From a virus, in IMG/VR virus record IMGVR_UViG_3300048838_001102, positions 1-58,038 of that record: DNA of 58,038 bases; one strand, given 5' to 3'. The notes under the pieces were generated by a model, which saw only the letters and a program-made list of their open reading frames with translations, was not told the DNA's origin and ran no database searches. Shown here in pieces: positions 9,181 through 39,053 of this stretch. The number at the start of each line of letters is the position of its first letter. Position 1 is the stretch's first letter. A program made the position numbers and the translations under genes.

Positions 9181-9335
9181 TCCTCTATGATTCTACGACA
9201 AACATCGGCATCAGGCGGCAACGATCCGTCTATCCATTTATCTATCAAGGCATCAGGAACGACATGCACAGATGAGCCGCAATTAATAACCCAATGAGCT
9301 CTGTAATTTTCCAGGTCTATTACTGCCTTAGTCAT
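9147..9335 (-). CDS. Hypothetical protein, 62 aa
   Basis: A small helical protein that I do not recognise. Its ATG lies within the end of the upstream gene at the junction GATGACTAAGG, where GATGACTAA closes one frame and ATGACTAAG opens the next. The same junction occurs at the start of the upstream gene (9518-9525), hinting at local duplication of the coupling site. Confidence 0.5.
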   Translation of the reverse strand: MTKAVIDLENYRAHWVINCGSSVHVVPDALIDKWIDGSLPPDADVCRRIIEEWRMLKLEMVE

Positions 9336-9525
9336 CCGCCTTGCTCGCTTCTTCCCAACTCCTAAGTGCCTCGCTCACTTCCGCGATTGCCTTGTATTTA
9401 TCATCCCCGATAGCCGAAACATAAACACTTTCGGTAGGCGTGCTCAAGTTAACCACCGCAGCTACCCAGCCTTCATCTTCTTCCGAGTACCAAGTCTGGA
9501 TTATGTATGTGTAGTACTTAGTCAT
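9328..9525 (-). CDS. HicB-like (partial RNase H-fold) small protein, 65 aa, tentative
   Basis: The sequence YTYIIQTWYSEEDEGWVAAV followed by a VSAIGDDKYKAIAEVSEAL helix has the strand-strand-helix pattern of HicB/UPF0150 antitoxin-like domains (typically DEGW.A.VP...GDT..EA...). There is no HicA toxin gene next to it, and no DNA-binding domain, so a toxin-antitoxin role is not supported. The ATG at 9525 was chosen because it overlaps the upstream stop codon; a longer frame runs through the exported gene upstream. Confidence 0.45.
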   Translation of the reverse strand: MTKYYTYIIQTWYSEEDEGWVAAVVNLSTPTESVYVSAIGDDKYKAIAEVSEALRSWEEASKADD

Positions 9526-9964
9526 CTGCACCGCCATCTGTCGAAACAAGCCAGACCATGAAGCATTTCCACAGAGAGTCGTCATAGTCATAAACGATCC
9601 GCAGTTCGCCACCAGCGGGAATATCGATCTCATTATCCGCGCCGATCTGACTGCCATTCAAGTATGGGTTAGCGCCAGCAGGAAAGTCAACTTCGATTAT
9701 CTGCCCCTCGACTTCACGGATTCTAAAATCCCGCGAGCCGGAAGGAGTTGAAAGATTGATCTCGACTTTACCAGTAGCCCCACGGTTAGTAACGGTGCCG
9801 CTCATGCTAGTAGTAGAAAGGCTCCCACCCGCCACAGCATACTCAACTTCGATTACCTTATCTCCAGCTGGCTTAATGCCGCTACGGCCAGTAGGCACCC
9901 AGGGCCAGCCATCGGCCAGAGCAAGGGAAGGCAGAAGAATGAACAAAAAGATTAGCTTTTTCAT
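9518..9964 (-). CDS. Exported beta-rich hypothetical protein, 148 aa
   Basis: The ATG at 9964 follows an AGGAAATAAG ribosome site and encodes a Sec signal peptide (MKKLIFLFILLPSLALA, cleavage before DGW). The mature part is mostly beta strands with GGELRIVYDYDDSLWKCF near the end. That resembles small phage structural proteins forming a beta sandwich. No enzymatic motif is visible. It lies one base after the stop of the 136-aa upstream gene. Confidence 0.65.
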   Translation of the reverse strand: MKKLIFLFILLPSLALADGWPWVPTGRSGIKPAGDKVIEVEYAVAGGSLSTTSMSGTVTNRGATGKVEINLSTPSGSRDFRIREVEGQIIEVDFPAGANPYLNGSQIGADNEIDIPAGGELRIVYDYDDSLWKCFMVWLVSTDGGADD

Positions 9965-9965
9965 C

Positions 9966-10376
9966 TTATTTCCTCTTGAAAATGAGGCCGATGGTAACGA
10001 TATTAGAGTTGCCGATATTGGCAGCGGCGCTTCCATCAGCGGCGGTCAAAGATAGCGTCAGGGTATCGATGACGCTCGGGGTTTTACCGTTGTATTCGTA
10101 GCCCCCCTGGCGTTCCTCGGAATCCAGTGCCCGTTCCCCGCCAAGGAAAACGGTCCCGCCGGTTGCGCTTACAAGCTTTACCCGGTAGGTAGTGGTTGGG
10201 GCGGTGGCGCCGCTCGAAGGCGTGGTGATAACTTCTTCAAGGGCAAAATCAGAAAGGCCGGGCACCGATTCATTCGGCACGCTGCCGTCCGAGGCGTCGG
10301 AAGTGTAGACAACTTGCACCAGGCGCTCGGACTTGCCGCCTTTCCAACTACGGGTTTGTTCTGCGGTTCCTGCCAT
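9966..10376 (-). CDS. Hypothetical structural protein, 136 aa
   Basis: A soluble beta-rich protein with many Thr, Ser and Gly residues, no signal peptide and no recognised domain. Composition and position suggest a minor virion or tail decoration protein. AGAGGAGACAAAA precedes the ATG. Its start overlaps the end of the giant polyvalent gene by 29 bases. Confidence 0.6.
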   Translation of the reverse strand: MAGTAEQTRSWKGGKSERLVQVVYTSDASDGSVPNESVPGLSDFALEEVITTPSSGATAPTTTYRVKLVSATGGTVFLGGERALDSEERQGGYEYNGKTPSVIDTLTLSLTAADGSAAANIGNSNIVTIGLIFKRK

Positions 10377-27975: not shown

Positions 27976-29992
27976 ACTGTCCGCCTTCTTGTGTTTGCGG
28001 GAATTGAACGGCCGGGGCGGGGTCGGCCTGCCGAGTTTGGCCGATTTGCGGATTTGAACCAACCTGCGGACCCGGACCGCCGGCCTGTTGAACCATTTCA
28101 AGAACTTTAATAAGACCCGCGAGATTTTGCACATCCATTGACTGCAATTCTTTCAAAGCCTTGACTCGATCAAATAGCGCGGTGGTTCTGTTCTCCTGCG
28201 CCTGGGTCAACCGCTCAGCAGCTTTTGCCATGTTGGCTTGCATCATAGCTTGGTTAAGCTGTATTTGCAACTGATTTAATTGCTGATTTTCGGCAGCCTG
28301 CGCTGCCCGCGCTTTTTCCTCGGCCTGCACTGCTTCGAGCAGCATGGACTTTCCTTCCAGCGGCCAGGCCTCGATTATGGCGGACCAGGGGATGACTTCG
28401 GCGCCCATCTTGCGCATCGCCATAAGTTGCGAATAATACTGCTGTCTTTGCGTATCGGTCAGTAGCCCTTCGATTACCACACAGTCATATTTACCAAAGT
28501 TTTGATCGTAGAACTCTTTGGTGGGCGGCTTGTTGTTGATCCGCTGAATCTTGCTCGGGGTGTAGTTTTTTTGAATCGCCTGCAAAGTTTTACCGCCCAA
28601 AATCTTTTGACTGCGATCCAGATTATCGAACAAATCCGATAATACCGTCAACCCGGAAGACTGCCTCAGTTTGGCCAGCAGCGCACTGATCTCGATATCC
28701 TGTGAGTCAGGCATCCCCAGCAACTCGTTGTTGAATCCTGGAATCTCCATCACGTCGTTATCCATGATCTGGGTCAACGTAAAGAGCCCCTGCGGGATAT
28801 CGGCCGCCCGGTTTTCCCGTACCAACTGCTCCAACGGAAGCTGCGGGGCGTCATCGCTGATCCAGATTACTTTACCCTGGCCGGTCTGATACAACGACGA
28901 GGGGTTGCGGACCGCTTTTTCCCGCGCCATGTACCCGCTTGAGATCTGGGTATCAATAATGTCGAGCATCTTTGACCGACGTTTGTTGACTTCATCCTGG
29001 GGGTCACGATCGCAACGGATCAACCCCTGAATCCGCAGCTCGGCCTTTTCCGCTTCCGGAACGTAAAACCCGAAAAAGGGCACCATCGGATAACAGTCAA
29101 GCCCGGTGGGGTCCGGGCCTGCTGAGATAAACCTGTCATTGACAAACACCCGCAGCTCGGTAGTGGTCTGTGGCCGGCGCACGACGGCAAAATTCTCCGA
29201 CGAAACCCCCATCAGCTCAAACATTTCACGCAAGCGCGAATCGCTTCCCTTCCAGGGTGACATCTGCCCGGTCATCTTATCGATCAGAATCGTTGTAGAC
29301 TTTACATTCTTGACCCACATCCGGTCGTAAGTATATAGATTTTGACCGCGCCGGTTTTTCATGAACTGATTCATCGATACGAATTTAGAAGGCGTGCCGC
29401 TCAACACCGGCAGATCACTTGATTTTACCGTCGGCAAAAGCTGCGACAGTCTTTCCGGGGTGACCATCACCCGATTAAGTATTGCCGAGCTGTCCTTCAT
29501 GTCCGGTTGACGCATATTCAAATCGAACATCACGGAATTATAGTCGTGCCGCAGCCACACGATGTCGCCATTAACCATGTCGTTTTCGTAATCAATGGCA
29601 ACCTCAACCATGTTCAACCCGGTAATCAGCGAGCCGCGTTCGAACGCGTCGGATATCAGGTTATACCCGTTCATCGCCTGGACGTTCCACATCAGCGTCC
29701 CGGACAACAGCTCGGCGGTCATCTGGTCGGACCCTTCCACCGGGTCGATCCGCATGGCCAAGCGGTTCTTACGCTGATAGCCGGCAACCGCCTTGATAAT
29801 GCGCCGGATCTTGTTAAACACCAGCGCCTCGCGCCGCTCGGCCGCCAGGTAGGATTTTAACCGCGCGTCCCATTGATCCCCGAGAAAGATTTCCAGATCC
29901 CGCTTCATCTCGGTAAAAATGGTCGTCCAATCCGGCAAAAACGCCGCGTACGCATCATCAAATTCTTTTTGCATATCAAGACCGGAAGCCAT
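27965..29992 (-). CDS. Portal protein (P22-like), 675 aa
   Basis: Length, gene order and content match P22/podovirus portals: the N-terminal FLGDQWDARL...EALVFNKIRRIIKAVAGYQRKNR segment, the ISDAFERGSLITGLNMVEV helix, a long alpha-helical region, and a Gln-rich C-terminal barrel helix (about 560-640) with AAENQQLNQLQIQLNQAM. Portals form the dodecameric DNA channel at one capsid vertex. ATG at 29992 overlaps the terminase stop (TGATG) and has GGAG upstream. Confidence 0.85.
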   Translation of the reverse strand: MASGLDMQKEFDDAYAAFLPDWTTIFTEMKRDLEIFLGDQWDARLKSYLAAERREALVFNKIRRIIKAVAGYQRKNRLAMRIDPVEGSDQMTAELLSGTLMWNVQAMNGYNLISDAFERGSLITGLNMVEVAIDYENDMVNGDIVWLRHDYNSVMFDLNMRQPDMKDSSAILNRVMVTPERLSQLLPTVKSSDLPVLSGTPSKFVSMNQFMKNRRGQNLYTYDRMWVKNVKSTTILIDKMTGQMSPWKGSDSRLREMFELMGVSSENFAVVRRPQTTTELRVFVNDRFISAGPDPTGLDCYPMVPFFGFYVPEAEKAELRIQGLIRCDRDPQDEVNKRRSKMLDIIDTQISSGYMAREKAVRNPSSLYQTGQGKVIWISDDAPQLPLEQLVRENRAADIPQGLFTLTQIMDNDVMEIPGFNNELLGMPDSQDIEISALLAKLRQSSGLTVLSDLFDNLDRSQKILGGKTLQAIQKNYTPSKIQRINNKPPTKEFYDQNFGKYDCVVIEGLLTDTQRQQYYSQLMAMRKMGAEVIPWSAIIEAWPLEGKSMLLEAVQAEEKARAAQAAENQQLNQLQIQLNQAMMQANMAKAAERLTQAQENRTTALFDRVKALKELQSMDVQNLAGLIKVLEMVQQAGGPGPQVGSNPQIGQTRQADPAPAVQFPQTQEGGQYGQ

Positions 29993-32853
29993 CAGTTTCT
30001 CCTGTACCACCCCGGCAGCGGGGCGCTGTAGCGATCTTTTAATTCCTGGTGTTTGGCGTCATTCATCACTTCGCCGGTGTAGGACTTACCCGGAGCGAAA
30101 GTCAAAGCCAGAGCGTCCGCTTTATTCGGGGATCGTTTCAGGATTTCACGCAGCGTTTCTTTATCCGTAATCTTAATCCGCCCGCGCGCATCCATCGTGT
30201 ATTTCAGGGCCAAAAGTTCTTCGCGCAACTCATCGTCGTCGGGTAGCATCGACGCCGGGTTTTCTTTCAAAAAAACCCGTATCTGCCACAACAACTGATC
30301 GCGCATTCTGGAAAACTCGCCTTGCTCGCAAAATTCCGTGGCCGACACCTGCGTTTTAATGGCGATGCCGTTTATGCCCACCCGGCGAAGATAGGGCGCC
30401 ACGCCGGCGCCGAAACCGTTGGCATCGACAAAGACTTGTTTGTACCCGTCTTCCCGGCAAATCAACTCGGCCCGCTCATTTGTCACGCCTATGTCCACCC
30501 CGCCCCAAGTGGTAAAGCCCCGGACAAAAGAGCCCCACCGCGCGCACAGCGCCGTCTTGTCGGACCCGAGTTCACCAGGGTCGAGACCCGCCCGCCCATC
30601 AACGCCTTGTTGCGGGTGCTCCCCGTTTTCATCTACGTAGTCATTCCACCGGTTGACCGCGGCTTCGATCAGCGCTTCTTCGATCAGTACGTTTTCATCC
30701 CGGGTTGGATACTGGCCCAGCACCATGTAGAAAAATTGGGGTTCTTCCACCCGGTAGCGGCCGACGCGCAACGGCGGGTAAAAGGTTCCGTCTTTGCGCT
30801 TTGCGACATAATCGACCAGGTACTCCGGAAGCTCGAACACGTCCGATCCATTATAATCGTCGTCTTCTTTAAGATACCGGCACCAGGCATTGACACGCCA
30901 GGCGGTTCTTTCCCTCGTCACGGCGCCGGGGTAGAGATCTTTGCCCGTTACAACATTGGGGTGATTGAAAGCCGAAAGCTGGATTACTTTGGCTTCCTGG
31001 TGCTTGACCATACTATAGACATGGCCATGCTTAAAACGCGGGTTATACATGACGAGCAGTCGCGCCATACCGCCGGAAGTACACGACTCGATACCCTTGT
31101 AGACCGCATCAGGAACCGCATCGCCCTCATCTACGATGAAAAGAAGGTAAGGTGCATGCTTGCCACCGAACCGGCTTTCACGTTCATGCTCCATGCCCTG
31201 GCCGGGGATCGGCACCCCGTCGATGGAAGCCACAGGCGGAACCGTAGAGCTTTTAACCGTCATGCCGGATATCGTGGACCCGTCAAACACGTCCGCGTTT
31301 CCGCGCATGCCGGCAACCACTTTGTCCCACAAGATACGCCGCAGGTTTTTTTCCGGGGGCGCCGCGGTCATATATACCTCCGCTGCGGGGAAACACCTGA
31401 ACCACCACAGCGCAAGATCCGCGGCGCAAAAAGAATTGTGCTCTACAAAAGTGGTAAGAAAAGTGTGCCTTTTAGGAACGGAAATATTGTACGTCTCGAA
31501 ATCGCCTACATACTCAAGGCTTTTTACCCGATCCCACTTATACCCTTGCGGGATATTACGATACGGCCATCTGGCTCCTTTATGCCCGGTAAAACGAATA
31601 GCCGCGTCGTAAACTTCTTTTAACTGCTTTTCCTTGCCATAAATACCAACAACATCGATAAACCGAAGAACGTCGCTTGGCTTATAGACCTGAAACTCCC
31701 AAGCGTCGAAATCCTTTTCATCGTTATACCGTACTTTCCGATGCCGAAAGTATCCTGTTATCCCCAACCGCAGACACGCCATTTCCACGTCTCTTACCAT
31801 CTGCTCAGACGCAAGCGTTACGGCTATTCTGCCTACCGGGGAAGACTTCGAAGATGGCTTGGACACCCAGGCATACCCATCACACGCGAAAAACCGATTC
31901 AAAAAAAGCGCCAACTGGTCATCGGGCAATTGCCACACAAAAGACGGAAACGATTTTTCATTCGACTTTTTCCCGAATATGCCCCATTGACGCGCAAGAT
32001 TCAGCACTTCATTGGCACCCGGAGGCGCGTACCCGTTCGTTTCGTTTAACAATACCGATGAGACACAAATCCCGTACGGGTTACCCTTTGCTGGCCGTGT
32101 AAAACACCCGAGTTCCTCCACTATGGATAGAAACTCGTCTTTCACAGGACCGTCCGGTTTCGTGAAATTAATGGCAATCGTTGTCCCGCCGTCAGCCAGC
32201 AAATACGCCAGCAGTTTTAACTTGCTTTCGTCATACCGCTGCGACGCAAATGAACGTAAACCCAAGGGCACCGCAACCAAATCCGTATTTACATCAATAT
32301 CTTTTACCTGTACCCACCCCGACGGCTCGGGGATCAAAGACGAGCATTTGGTGTTTGGGTATTGGCTTTTTGCTTTAGCGCAATACAGAAGATGATTCGG
32401 GGTACGGTAGATTTGACGCCCGGAGCTTGACTCCACCCGGTAGACAGGCTTTCGGCCGTTCGGCCGTACCGCGGCTAAAACGATATCCTGTCGTCCTGTT
32501 GCCTCATCAAAACCCACCATAGGTACAATCTGCCCGGAGAGGTCTTCGACTTTGACAAACCGCCCATCCGCCAGCGGGACGCGCTCGCCTTGTTTCAGGC
32601 ACTTGCCCACGGCGTTCGCGCTTTGCGCTACAACGACATCGTTTTCCAAAACCGCCATCATCAGGTTTTGGACATCTTCGGTATAGGTGTGACCCAGGAT
32701 GTCTTTTCCAAACCCGATCGGATCTTTTTGATACCGCTCGTACCGGCTATGGAAAATTGCCCCGCCGCCGGCAAGACCTTTAATCAGATCCTCCATCAGA
32801 GAATCAGCGACATCGCCCTTAGCCGCTTTTATATCGGGCGAGACATAGCTCAT
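29992..32853 (-). CDS. terL: Terminase large subunit interrupted by an intein, 953 aa precursor
   Basis: The extein (564 residues after splicing) carries the two TerL activities. The ATPase has P-loop SANAVGKS, split by the intein after Lys84, and Walker B LLFIVDEGD. The C-terminal RNase H-like nuclease has acidic residues in GLDPGELGSDKTAL, VFVDANGFG and SPNKADALAL. It cuts and translocates genomic DNA into the prohead through the portal. The intein occupies residues 85-473. Without splicing the P-loop would be destroyed, so packaging must depend on splicing. The start overlaps the small-subunit stop (ATGA). Confidence 0.9.
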   Translation of the reverse strand: MSYVSPDIKAAKGDVADSLMEDLIKGLAGGGAIFHSRYERYQKDPIGFGKDILGHTYTEDVQNLMMAVLENDVVVAQSANAVGKCLKQGERVPLADGRFVKVEDLSGQIVPMVGFDEATGRQDIVLAAVRPNGRKPVYRVESSSGRQIYRTPNHLLYCAKAKSQYPNTKCSSLIPEPSGWVQVKDIDVNTDLVAVPLGLRSFASQRYDESKLKLLAYLLADGGTTIAINFTKPDGPVKDEFLSIVEELGCFTRPAKGNPYGICVSSVLLNETNGYAPPGANEVLNLARQWGIFGKKSNEKSFPSFVWQLPDDQLALFLNRFFACDGYAWVSKPSSKSSPVGRIAVTLASEQMVRDVEMACLRLGITGYFRHRKVRYNDEKDFDAWEFQVYKPSDVLRFIDVVGIYGKEKQLKEVYDAAIRFTGHKGARWPYRNIPQGYKWDRVKSLEYVGDFETYNISVPKRHTFLTTFVEHNSFCAADLALWWFRCFPAAEVYMTAAPPEKNLRRILWDKVVAGMRGNADVFDGSTISGMTVKSSTVPPVASIDGVPIPGQGMEHERESRFGGKHAPYLLFIVDEGDAVPDAVYKGIESCTSGGMARLLVMYNPRFKHGHVYSMVKHQEAKVIQLSAFNHPNVVTGKDLYPGAVTRERTAWRVNAWCRYLKEDDDYNGSDVFELPEYLVDYVAKRKDGTFYPPLRVGRYRVEEPQFFYMVLGQYPTRDENVLIEEALIEAAVNRWNDYVDENGEHPQQGVDGRAGLDPGELGSDKTALCARWGSFVRGFTTWGGVDIGVTNERAELICREDGYKQVFVDANGFGAGVAPYLRRVGINGIAIKTQVSATEFCEQGEFSRMRDQLLWQIRVFLKENPASMLPDDDELREELLALKYTMDARGRIKITDKETLREILKRSPNKADALALTFAPGKSYTGEVMNDAKHQELKDRYSAPLPGWYRRN
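31435..32601 (-). mobile_element. Intein with LAGLIDADG homing endonuclease inside TerL (389 aa)
   Basis: The intein spans residues 85-473 of the precursor. It begins with Cys85 (CLKQGERVPLADGRF), contains block B TPNHLL with the conserved His154, and ends YNISVPKRHTFLTTFVEHN, with penultimate His472, terminal Asn473 and Ser474 as the first residue of the C-extein. Two LAGLIDADG motifs are visible: LLAYLLADGG (214-223, acidic D221) and LALFLNRFFACDGYA (314-328, D325). The element is therefore likely both splicing- and homing-competent. It sits in the codons for the P-loop, a classic conserved intein insertion point. Confidence 0.92.
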
Positions 32854-33741: not shown

Positions 33742-34383
33742 GTGAACCCATCCGACGCACCAACCGCGGTATCAAAAAACCCCAACCACCCGGCAAAAGG
33801 ATCATCCATCCGCACCGACCCGATCCGCAATAAAAAAGACATCGAAAAAATTCTGGCCCTTCTGTCCGGCAACCCGCGCGACTCGGCGCTGTTTATCCTG
33901 GGCATCCACACCAACCTGCGCGCCTCGGACATCGTGGCCCTTACCGTCGGGCAGGTGGCGCACCTTGAGCCGGGCCAGGAGCTTGTCACACGCGATAAAA
34001 AGACCTCACGCTACATGGTCCGCAGCCTTGCCGAACCAGTAGTAAGAGCCCTTCGCCGCTGGCTATCCGTTCACCCGCGCGGAACCGACAAAAACGCCCC
34101 GCTGTTTCTCAGCCAAAGAAGCGGCGCGGCCTTGACCGCCCCGGCCTTGAGCCGCAAGGTCAAAGCCTGGTGCGCCCAAGCCGGTGTCACCGGCGGCAAT
34201 TACAGCAGTCACAGCTTGCGCAAAACCTTTGCCTACCACGCGTTGAACACTTTTAACCAGCCCGTCCACCTTGTTTCCGCTGCGCTGGGGCACAAGCAGC
34301 TTGCCACGACCTTAACCTACCTTGGCGTGCAAGACCGCCAGATCCGCCAGCTTTTTATGAACACCATCACCGACACCAAATAA
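33742..34383 (+). CDS. Tyrosine recombinase (phage integrase family), minimal catalytic form, 213 aa
   Basis: The active-site set is complete: R60 (NLRASDI), K86/K87 in the beta-hairpin, H157 and R160 (HSLRKT), H184 (LGHKQ) and nucleophile Y193 (LTYLG). The protein lacks the N-terminal arm- and core-binding domains of lambda-type integrases, since only about 25 residues precede the catalytic fold. It could integrate the phage, resolve genome dimers or invert DNA. It starts at GTG behind AAGGAGAG. No adjacent attP-like core or excisionase was recognised. It is transcribed away from terS. Confidence 0.85.
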   Translation: MNPSDAPTAVSKNPNHPAKGSSIRTDPIRNKKDIEKILALLSGNPRDSALFILGIHTNLRASDIVALTVGQVAHLEPGQELVTRDKKTSRYMVRSLAEPVVRALRRWLSVHPRGTDKNAPLFLSQRSGAALTAPALSRKVKAWCAQAGVTGGNYSSHSLRKTFAYHALNTFNQPVHLVSAALGHKQLATTLTYLGVQDRQIRQLFMNTITDTK

Positions 34384-34400
34384 AAAGGAGAACCCACACG

Positions 34401-34949
34401 ATGATCAAAAAAATCCAATTTCTGGAAGACCGCGCGGGCGCCATCGTGGCGCTGTTCGACATCACCGATCGTAGATTCATTGAAACCGCACTGATCGGCT
34501 TCCACACCGTCACCCCAGCCTCTAAATTTACCGCCATGCTTTCGGCCGGCATCACCAAAGAGTCCATCCAGCCCTACCTGCGCATACCCGAAATGAAAAC
34601 CTTATGGACCACCTTGACCCAGGAAGTGCGCCCGGCGATGCTCTCGGGCCAGGCGGGGGTGTGTACCATGAGCGGCGAGCGCAAAGTGGTCCGCGTCGGG
34701 CCGGTTACCGGCTACCGACTCCGGCCAAAGGGCGGAACCGACATTTTACGAGAGGCTATGGACATTTCCACCGGTGTCTACTACGACATCGAGGAAGCCC
34801 GGATCGACCCAGCCTTCGACACCGGCGACACAAAGGCCATTATGGACTTTGCGGGCGTGGAAATCCAGAAGGTGCTCACCGTAACCGGCCTGACCGACGC
34901 CAAAATCACCATAGGGGAGCAGACTTTCTCGGTAAAAGGAGCTGTATGA
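34401..34949 (+). CDS. Hypothetical protein, 182 aa
   Basis: An unrecognised soluble alpha/beta protein following the recombinase by 17 bases with AAAGGAG upstream, so probably the same transcript. Features include a basic central strand (SGERKVVRVGPVTGYRLRPK) and an acidic second half. It might assist recombination, but nothing shows this directly. Confidence 0.6.
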   Translation: MIKKIQFLEDRAGAIVALFDITDRRFIETALIGFHTVTPASKFTAMLSAGITKESIQPYLRIPEMKTLWTTLTQEVRPAMLSGQAGVCTMSGERKVVRVGPVTGYRLRPKGGTDILREAMDISTGVYYDIEEARIDPAFDTGDTKAIMDFAGVEIQKVLTVTGLTDAKITIGEQTFSVKGAV

Positions 34950-35046: not shown

Positions 35047-35074
35047 AAAAGGCGCCTTTCGGGGCGCCTTTTTT
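35047..35074 (+). terminator. Rho-independent terminator of the recombinase operon
   Basis: AAGGCGCC and GGCGCCTT form a GC-rich stem around a six-base loop, directly followed by six T residues. It lies three bases after the last stop codon of the operon. Confidence 0.85.
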
Positions 35075-35173
35075 CATGAAAAAAAGCAAAAATTTTTTCC
35101 GCCGACGCGTTTTAACGGCCGAAAATCTCGGCCTTTTCCCCCTGTAAAACCCCCACCCCCCATAATCACATAG

Positions 35174-35299
35174 TAAATGCCGTAACGGCGGCGAAATACC
35201 ATAAAAAATACCGGGTAAATGCCGTAATGGCGGTGGAATATTATAAAAAATACCTGATAAACGCCATAATGGCGGCGGTGTTTTATCGCCGGCTTTACC
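35174..35299. repeat. Three 42-bp tandem repeats (iterons)
   Basis: Copies start at 35174, 35216 and 35258 with a consensus opening TAAATGCCGTAAYGGCGG. Each contains the imperfect palindrome GCCGTAACGGC. The third copy diverges at its 3' end. Since 42 is a multiple of three, a 137-codon frame stays open on the minus strand across them, but it also reads through the terminator and is not believed to be a gene. Confidence 0.85.
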
Positions 35300-35581
35300 C
35301 ATTTTTTCCTGTAATGTTAACAATTTAGAAGTTTGGTGCCATTTAATTTGTACGACGCGCGCCATTAGGGGAATCGACTTGCCAACCCCGGCCCCCTATT
35401 CCGTTTTTCGGCCCCCTATATTGTCCGATTCACCCCGAATCGACCGTTTTTCCTGGAAGCTTGCTAACTTTCTGAAAAAGTTGCCGAACCTGATATGAGG
35501 CGTTTACCTTATTAAATCAATGCCTTACCTGGTTTTTTCCTGGCCTGCGGTTTTTCCTGGCCCGGCCTGGCAAGTGCCTAT

Positions 35582-35644
35582 AAAAAACTTGCACTGTGTC
35601 ATTTTTTACACACTGTGTCATTTTTTACACAGTGCAAGTTTTTT
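35582..35644. terminator. 18-bp perfect inverted repeat, bidirectional terminator-like
   Basis: AAAAAACTTGCACTGTGT (35582-35599) is exactly inverted at 35627-35644, giving T6 tails on both strands and a 27-base loop. The arm and loop also contain a 19-bp tandem repeat (CACTGTGTCATTTTTTACA at 35592 and 35611). It could stop transcription in both directions, insulating the recombinase operon from the parS/early promoter region, or act as a structural origin element. Confidence 0.7.
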
Positions 35645-35680
35645 ATTGCACCTCGCGTGCGAATCCGCGATGTCTTAAAC

Positions 35681-35694
35681 GTAATACGTATTAC
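35681..35694. promoter_or_regulatory. 14-bp perfect palindrome GTAATACGTATTAC
   Basis: A perfect palindrome of operator size, about 40 bp from the parS site. Likely a dimeric DNA-binding protein site; the protein is unknown. Confidence 0.55.
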
Positions 35695-35735: not shown

Positions 35736-35751
35736 TGTTTCACGTGAAACA
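35736..35751. promoter_or_regulatory. parS: Canonical bacterial chromosomal parS site
   Basis: TGTTTCACGTGAAACA is a perfect 16-bp palindrome identical to the parS consensus bound by chromosomal ParB/Spo0J proteins across most bacteria. No ParA or ParB gene was recognised in the window. The site lies in the intergenic control region next to palindromic repeats and upstream of the early promoter. Recruitment of host ParB is the simplest interpretation; chance occurrence of this exact 16-mer in 58 kb is about 1 in 70,000 assuming equal base frequencies. Confidence 0.85.
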
Positions 35752-35757
35752 AAAAAA

Positions 35758-35821
35758 GGTAACAGTTACTTTTTGCAATTTGCAAAAAAGGTAACAGTTA
35801 CCTTTTTGCAATTTGCAAAAA
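35758..35821. repeat. Two tandem ~32-bp units, each with two palindromes
   Basis: Each unit holds GTAACAGTTAC (35759-35769, 35791-35801) followed by TTTTGCAATTTGCAAAA (35771-35787, 35804-35820). Both elements are inverted repeats. They begin seven bases after parS. They could be binding sites of a partition or replication protein, or operators for the promoter at 35911. Confidence 0.8.
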
Positions 35822-35848
35822 TCAACCGGGCGAAACAGCGCGCCAGAT

Positions 35849-35971
35849 CCGCCGGGTTACGATTGCCGCCGTAAAAAAACTGATTAACTCATAATAGCAC
35901 GAAAAAAAGATTGACAAGCACATTTTACCGGCATAAAGTAAAATCAATACGCTGGAAAAACCACAAACGCC
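35849..35971. repeat. 123-bp direct repeat, copy 1
   Basis: Identical to 38913-39035. It contains the last 14 codons and stop of the gene at 38689-38958 (here an orphan 3' fragment, about 35851-35899), then a promoter and the start of a leader. The gene tail came along with the promoter, so the copy here most likely derives from the one at 38913. Confidence 0.9.
35911..35939 (+). promoter_or_regulatory. Early rightward promoter (copy 1)
   Basis: TTGACA (35911-35916) and TAAAGT (35934-35939) with a 17-base spacer give a near-consensus sigma70-type promoter about 50 bp upstream of the first early gene. The identical sequence recurs at 38975-39003. Confidence 0.8.
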
Positions 35972-35990
35972 GAAAGGAGAAAAAACCATG
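35957..35990 (+). repeat. 34-bp leader repeat, copy 1 (copy 2 at 36429-36462)
   Basis: AAAACCACAAACGCCGAAAG is followed by GAGAAAAAACC and the ATG, identical before the genes at 35988 and 36460. A shortened version (to ACGCC) follows the second promoter at 39018-39035. It carries the ribosome site AAAGGAGA, so it is a reused translation-initiation cassette that may also bind a regulator in RNA. Confidence 0.8.
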
Positions 35991-36227
35991 CTCGCAATCA
36001 TTACGGAACCACGCGACGACGGAACATACGACGACGTTGGAACGAACCATCGGATCATGCAATCCAAGTACAAATCTATCCGCACCTTACTCCGATATGG
36101 CGTCCCAGACCACTTTAAAGGCACGTTACGCGTCGAAACGTGGCCGTCCATTCACTCATTTTACACAGATGAAAAACCGAGCTGGACGTTCTACGCCCAC
36201 AAAGAACACTGGTACCCCCGCCGATAA
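35988..36227 (+). CDS. Hypothetical early protein, 79 aa
   Basis: First gene after the early promoter, with the 34-bp leader cassette and GAAAGGAGA ribosome site. The product is soluble, with many aromatic and charged residues (WPSIHSFYTDEKPSWTFYAHKEHWYPRR). Not recognised. First early genes often encode host-takeover or anti-defence proteins, but nothing in the sequence shows this. Confidence 0.65.
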   Translation: MLAIITEPRDDGTYDDVGTNHRIMQSKYKSIRTLLRYGVPDHFKGTLRVETWPSIHSFYTDEKPSWTFYAHKEHWYPRR

Positions 36228-38958: not shown

Positions 38959-39035
38959 TAGCACGAAAAAAAGATTGACAAGCACATTTTACCGGCATAA
39001 AGTAAAATCAATACGCTGGAAAAACCACAAACGCC
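38913..39035. repeat. 123-bp direct repeat, copy 2
   Basis: Identical to 35849-35971. Here the repeat starts inside an intact gene's 3' end, so this is probably the source copy, and it places a second early promoter before the 39083 gene. Confidence 0.9.
38975..39003 (+). promoter_or_regulatory. Early rightward promoter (copy 2)
   Basis: TTGACA (38975-38980), 17-base spacer, TAAAGT (38998-39003), identical to the 35911 promoter. It drives the single gene at 39083. Confidence 0.8.
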
Positions 39036-39053
39036 CCCGCTTCGAACGGGGGC
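39033..39053 (+). other. UUCG-type leader hairpin
   Basis: GCCCCCG and CGGGGGC pair around CTTCGAA, giving a very stable hairpin in the 5' leader just downstream of promoter copy 2. A few A residues and no T-tract follow. It could attenuate or stabilise the transcript, and marks the point where the leader diverges from that after promoter copy 1. Confidence 0.65.

Follow-up and report, generated by a model that had tools for sequence, protein, structure and literature searches.

What use a phage could make of a bacterial centromere is the question raised by a 16-bp palindrome in the IMG/VR virus record IMGVR_UViG_3300048838_001102, the whole 58,038-nucleotide stretch of which was analysed and is referred to here as the window. 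The sequence TGTTTCACGTGAAACA, found at positions 35736-35751, is intergenic and agrees with the parS consensus of bacterial chromosomes at 16 of 16 positions. A chromosomal parS can be defined as a 16-bp palindrome at most 2 mismatches away from this sequence, and the site in the window shows 0 mismatches. An earlier note, made from the letters of the window, had described it as a perfect host-type site, and both the exact sequence and its intergenic position are confirmed. It is also present in a single copy, being the sole match at up to 3 mismatches in the whole 58-kb window, which holds no second site, while shuffled sequences yield 0.27 matches at this threshold. Chromosomal parS sites are recognised by their clustering near oriC, whereas this one belongs to a virus record and lies between a recombinase gene and an early operon.

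The phage genome and the search for partition genes

The window encodes a portal, a major head protein, a terminase, and a family A DNA polymerase, together with a helicase, an exonuclease, and a single-strand binding protein. Its portal is 22-24% similar to those of phages such as KPP25 and DC1, which represents a loose link. Two related contigs, G004 (63 kb) and G005 (64 kb), show the same gene order as the window and span both of its ends; the distance from the polymerase to the homologue of gene 1365-2015 is 4.8 kb in G004 and 7.9 kb in G005, and it would be 6.1 kb in the window if the ends were joined. Since the gene order of these relatives crosses the window ends, the window is close to complete, and the three contigs are circularly permuted relative to each other. 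An integrase gene, the mark of a temperate phage, is present in the form of a 213-aa recombinase, and the window is probably the genome of a temperate tailed phage. A search with the DNA of the control region retrieved no annotated phage relatives, and one with terminase patterns, some of which fell in an intein-like insert, retrieved no relatives. This insert comprises ~390 residues (around residues 85-477) of the terminase large subunit ORF (29992-32853, minus strand, 953 aa), and the G004 terminase aligns without it. An insertion of ~740 bp, an intron or similar element, interrupts the gene for the major head protein in G004 (L129, about 9273-10011).

The earlier note had seen no recognisable ParAB, and profile searches agree with it. 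Six-frame family searches with PF02195 (ParB_N), PF17762 (HTH_ParB), and PF13614 (ParA-type AAA_31) gave no match at E≤1 in the window or in either relative, G004 and G005; the same models matched 11-14 of 14 control genomes. The candidate explanation that the phage has its own ParAB, overlooked by annotation, is ruled out by these searches. The window thus lacks the ParA and ParB that a phage-plasmid with its own partition system would encode, and in this respect it resembles the phi29 type.

The control region in the window and in its relatives

The parS site is located inside a non-coding control region of ~0.9 kb, flanked on the left by the tyrosine recombinase and a 182-aa gene and on the right by the first rightward operon. 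The recombinase/integrase (33742-34383, plus strand, 213 aa) consists of the catalytic domain only (PF00589 and phrog_216) and is thus as minimal as had been proposed. The 182-aa protein encoded between it and the control region (34401-34949, plus strand) gave no hit to PHROG or Pfam. A likely terminator (35050-35069, plus strand) marks where this region starts on the left, a G+C-rich stem-loop (AGGCGCC..GGCGCCTTTTTT) followed by a T run, which was read by eye and is absent from the terminator scan list. The region does contain the iterons and palindromes attributed to it, in the form of tandem repeats and several palindromic elements. First, there is a 42-bp iteron-like tandem repeat (35173-35256, plus strand) with a partial third copy after it. 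This is followed by a block kept in relatives (35360-35399, plus strand), an inverted repeat whose 33-nt arms are built from the 19-bp direct repeat CACTGTGTCATTTTTTACA (35580-35646), and the palindrome GTAATACGTATTAC (35681-35694), read directly, which lies 41 bp to the left of parS. On the other side, parS is abutted by a 32-bp tandem repeat (35752-35822, plus strand), each copy of which holds the palindromes GGTAACAGTTAC(C) and TTTGCAATTTGC; GCAATTTGC occurs in G005 too.

A sigma-70-like promoter, TTGACA-17-TAAAGT (35911-35939, plus strand), is found 159 bp downstream of parS. Promoter-scan matches in the region equal the shuffle mean, without any excess, and the promoter is proposed from its position and from the similarly placed TTGACA in G005 and in the related contig L148, not from the scan. 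To its right there is a run of small rightward genes, the first of which (35988-36227, plus strand) belongs to no family. No structured RNA or tRNA was found in the window.

Several other features of these regions deserve mention. In each of the four control regions (35360-35399 in the window, L132, L143, and L148) the conserved block has the core ATTAGGGGA(N)TCGACTT, and it could be an attP or an origin element. The early promoter and its leader, TTGACAAGCACATTTTACCGGCATAAAGTAAAATCAATACGCTGGAAAAACCAC (35898-35990), are apparently duplicated ~3 kb downstream (about 38960-39050), and the two ORFs at these leaders share the same first 19 residues. Fur-box-like sequences appear in G004 (TGATAATGATTATCC, L132 about 9338, minus strand) and across the G005 early promoter (GATTATGATAATAATC, L143 5685-5705), where they are possibly sites for another host regulator.

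Conservation of the site was assessed in four control regions, those of the window, G005, G004, and L148. The G005 region holds TGTCTCACGTGATACA, 2 mismatches from parS and 166 bp upstream of the G005 TTGACA, compared with 159 bp in the window. At the base level, the G005 site aligns opposite a different palindrome of the window, and not base for base with the window parS, whereas the best match in the G004 and L148 control regions has 7 mismatches. According to these alignments, conservation at the orthologous locus is weakly supported. Absence from related phages had been named in advance as evidence against the proposal, and it is found in part, with a 2-mismatch version in one of the three relatives and none in the other two. 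Both the missing site in two of three relatives and the imperfect, differently aligned version in G005 count against a role in segregation by host ParB.

Among ~40 relatives of the recombinase in virus contigs, no parS other than that of G005 was detected near the recombinase. In a Deltaproteobacteria MAG (L206), a site with up to 2 mismatches is located at +475 bp from the integrase, which is within chance, and L173 and L174 contain 2-mismatch matches at 5.7-6.2 kb from the integrase. The idea that the integrase relatives strictly conserve the site was discarded, as among them sites with up to 2 mismatches near the integrase are restricted to G005 and L206.

The window parS is unlikely to have arisen by chance, as the exact 16-mer is expected ~1e-5 times per 58 kb (58,000/4^16), and when 200 permuted palindromes of the same composition were compared with the control regions of the window and G005, not one matched at 2 or fewer mismatches. 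The broader explanation, that it is due to chance or is a neutral remnant of host oriC DNA gained by recombination, would fit its absence from two of three relatives and the fact that scanning many windows examines many motifs. However, no host oriC genes lie nearby and the control region of G005 also has a parS-like site, so this explanation is quite improbable.

The palindrome might also be a private operator, bound by a regulator that the phage itself encodes and coinciding with the parS sequence by accident. The region is rich in palindromes that differ between relatives, as with the operators of fast-evolving repressors; G005 repeats the TGTCTCA half-site nearby; and the alignment of the G005 site against a different window palindrome points in the same direction. 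Against it, such an operator would not need a 16/16 match to the host consensus, only one copy is present, and the small-terminase-like protein is the only candidate repressor found with a recognisable DNA-binding domain, all of which makes a private operator unlikely.

The main rival to a partition role is the silencing of the early promoter. Host ParB clamps loaded at parS would slide over the promoter at 35911-35939 and dampen the early genes, coupling the phage programme to the ParB/CTP state, with segregation being incidental. The similar spacing between site and promoter in the window and in G005 suits this idea. Furthermore, in P. aeruginosa ParB acts through the intergenic sites parS3 and parS4 to repress the promoters next to them (PMC5521831), and in the mobile element SGI1 the copy number changes when a parS situated 25 bp upstream of an activator box is lost (PMC10954446). 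Nevertheless, ParB silencing is often modest at natural levels, and the positions of orphan sites in other phages, described below, are better suited to a role independent of position. Promoter silencing as the primary function is consequently doubtful.

The likely host and orphan parS in other virus contigs

In named genomes, proteins related to the recombinase, with identities of about 40-50% (up to 49%), come mostly from Desulfobacterota (Desulfobulbaceae, Desulfocapsaceae, Desulfobacteraceae, and Geobacter), which suggests, at the phylum level, a likely host among these sulfate-reducing-type bacteria. A search of genome contigs with the major head protein found no close prophage or direct host. 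A host assignment drawn from integrase relatives at this level of identity, with no close prophage found, counts against segregation by host ParB. Of the genomes with integrase relatives, 10 of the Desulfobacterota type were tested, and every one has parS at no more than 1 mismatch (exact in 8 of them), in 1-2 copies each, and a ParB-type GERRxRA motif occurs within ~1.5 kb of parS in five of the eight loci examined (3 kb per locus). As these genomes carry the identical parS, in several cases beside parB, a ParB able to recognise the exact site is expected in the likely host. The expectation that the parS of the host would be the same is therefore borne out for this group of bacteria, sometimes next to parB, although the host itself is deduced from the integrase.

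Exact parS is present in at least 120 IMG/VR stretches. The one control palindrome that was counted, TTGTTCACGTGAACAA, which has the same composition with a CACGTG core, is present in 5 and is thus at least 24 times rarer than parS in virus contigs, which also argues against chance or a neutral remnant as the origin of the window site. ParB_N was detected at E≤0.01 in five of 38 longer parS contigs, three of these hits passing the family cut-off, and was missing from the other 33. In these 33 contigs, 13 of 42 parS sites are intergenic, compared with 8.8% expected (p=4e-5, with genes called by a simple script). Some orphan sites adjoin clear phage genes, such as those for a head-tail adaptor (L041) and a tail protein (L010). 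L041 resembles a Pelagibacter phage, in which no site closer than 2 mismatches exists in the 12.9 kb read, and L010 matches phi29-like phages. In addition, L039, L064, and L069 lack a ParB domain and have two exact parS copies apiece, most of them in intergenic DNA or in leaders; the pair in L069 falls within a repeated leader sequence.

The phages of the phi29 type provide a second line of evidence. The phi29 genome, whose annotation includes no ParB, contains four parS sites at 1 mismatch (TGTTTCACGTGGAACA), distributed over the late region and the right end. PZA and Goe6 each have four as well, of which three differ from parS at one position and one at two; in Goe18 all four differ at one position. 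A phi29-like gut relative holds four sites, two of them exact and two at 1 mismatch, whereas no site was found in KonjoTrouble or in a further gut relative. The phi29-like gut phages L010 and L292 carry two or three exact copies each plus 1-mismatch copies, in tandem in L010.

The general idea that phages bear orphan host-type parS is thus well supported by both the enrichment in virus contigs and the phi29-type phages. As IMG/VR contigs may be fragments or include host DNA, the survey supports a general strategy but does not prove it. We consider it possible, and propose tentatively, that the capture of host centromeres is a widespread and largely unrecognised strategy of many unrelated phages, which lack ParB, bear exact host-type parS, and leave the placing or partition of their genomes to host ParB, and that here its location in an early control region joins segregation and early transcription in one switch made by the host.

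The role of the site and known systems

We favour the view that the window parS is a captured host centromere which recruits host ParB for the segregation or positioning of the phage genome, and assign it a probability of about one half. Host ParB would bind the site in the course of an infection, or while the phage is dormant or extrachromosomal, close into a CTP-bound clamp, and slide onto the flanking phage DNA. The ParA/ParB (and SMC) machinery of the host would then segregate or position the phage DNA along with the origins of the bacterium, and the site would be all that the phage contributes. ParB binding, clamp spreading, and the benefit in segregation or positioning are inferred. Taken together, the reported action of Spo0J on phi29, the SGI1 case, and ParB repression at intergenic parS make the recruitment of host ParB the most likely role. 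Within it, segregation or positioning appears preferable to promoter silencing because orphan parS in other phages, next to structural genes at varied places or scattered as in phi29, has no fixed place relative to genes.

The hijacking of host ParB suggested by the earlier note is consequently supported in part, as far as the real parS, the missing ParA and ParB, the viral nature of the genome, and the shared parS of the likely host group are concerned, but orthologous conservation is weak. Two more observations count against segregation by host ParB. No plasmid replication initiator was recognised among the scanned window proteins, and an integrase is present, and integration of the parS at a distance from oriC could be harmful to the cell. 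The phage may be an extrachromosomal phage-plasmid, as that note suggested, and its circular permutation relative to G004 and G005 argues neither for nor against this.

The same note had also considered a decoy, in which replicated phage DNA would titrate ParB off the host origin and disturb segregation or cell-cycle control. One site per genome would make a weak sponge, with no second site in the window, and the loss of ParB is mild in many hosts; this possibility is very improbable, even if extra parS copies destabilise the resident ParABS replicon in the SGI1 case (PMC10954446).

If host ParB does load on this phage, the phi29 case would be extended from one lytic Bacillus lineage to a recombinase-bearing phage in another phylum, and there would be a simple route by which dividing cells could retain or position a phage that has no partition genes. 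Judging from the enrichment in virus contigs, many phages may use host ParB likewise, and all phage genomes merit a scan for orphan parS.

A search of part of the open literature for orphan chromosomal parS in phages found nothing beyond phi29 and SGI1. SGI1 shows that stolen parS sites, together with foreign ParAB, stabilise a mobile element (PMC10954446). As in the window, its parS mimics are not accompanied by parAB, depend on the ParAB of another replicon, and include one beside a regulated promoter. In contrast, SGI1 mimics the parS of an IncC plasmid, relies on a helper plasmid and not on a chromosome, has two copies, and has been proven by EMSA and stability assays. P1 and the mycobacteriophage RedRock also bear parS on a phage genome, there for prophage maintenance, but each has ParA and ParB genes of its own and a private type of parS (PMC7157519). 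P. aeruginosa parS3 and parS4 are likewise close upstream of a promoter that is repressed in a ParB-dependent manner, although they are chromosomal, near oriC, and not on a mobile element (PMC5521831).

The closest parallel is phi29 (Salasvirus), in which likewise no ParA or ParB is annotated and which carries host-type parS. The use of host ParB by a phage through orphan parS is already known from it, insofar as a secondary account (PMC9437464, citing Meijer et al. 2005) reports that the ParB of Bacillus, Spo0J, traps the chromosome of phi29 inside the spore; for the window phage, the role of ParB is predicted. Moreover, phi29 is strictly lytic, with a linear genome, protein-primed replication, a sporulating host, and several slightly imperfect sites. 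What differs here is that a phage with a recombinase and a likely Desulfobacterota host has a single perfect site (one match at up to 3 mismatches) in its control region, along with an indication that orphan parS is common in virus contigs.
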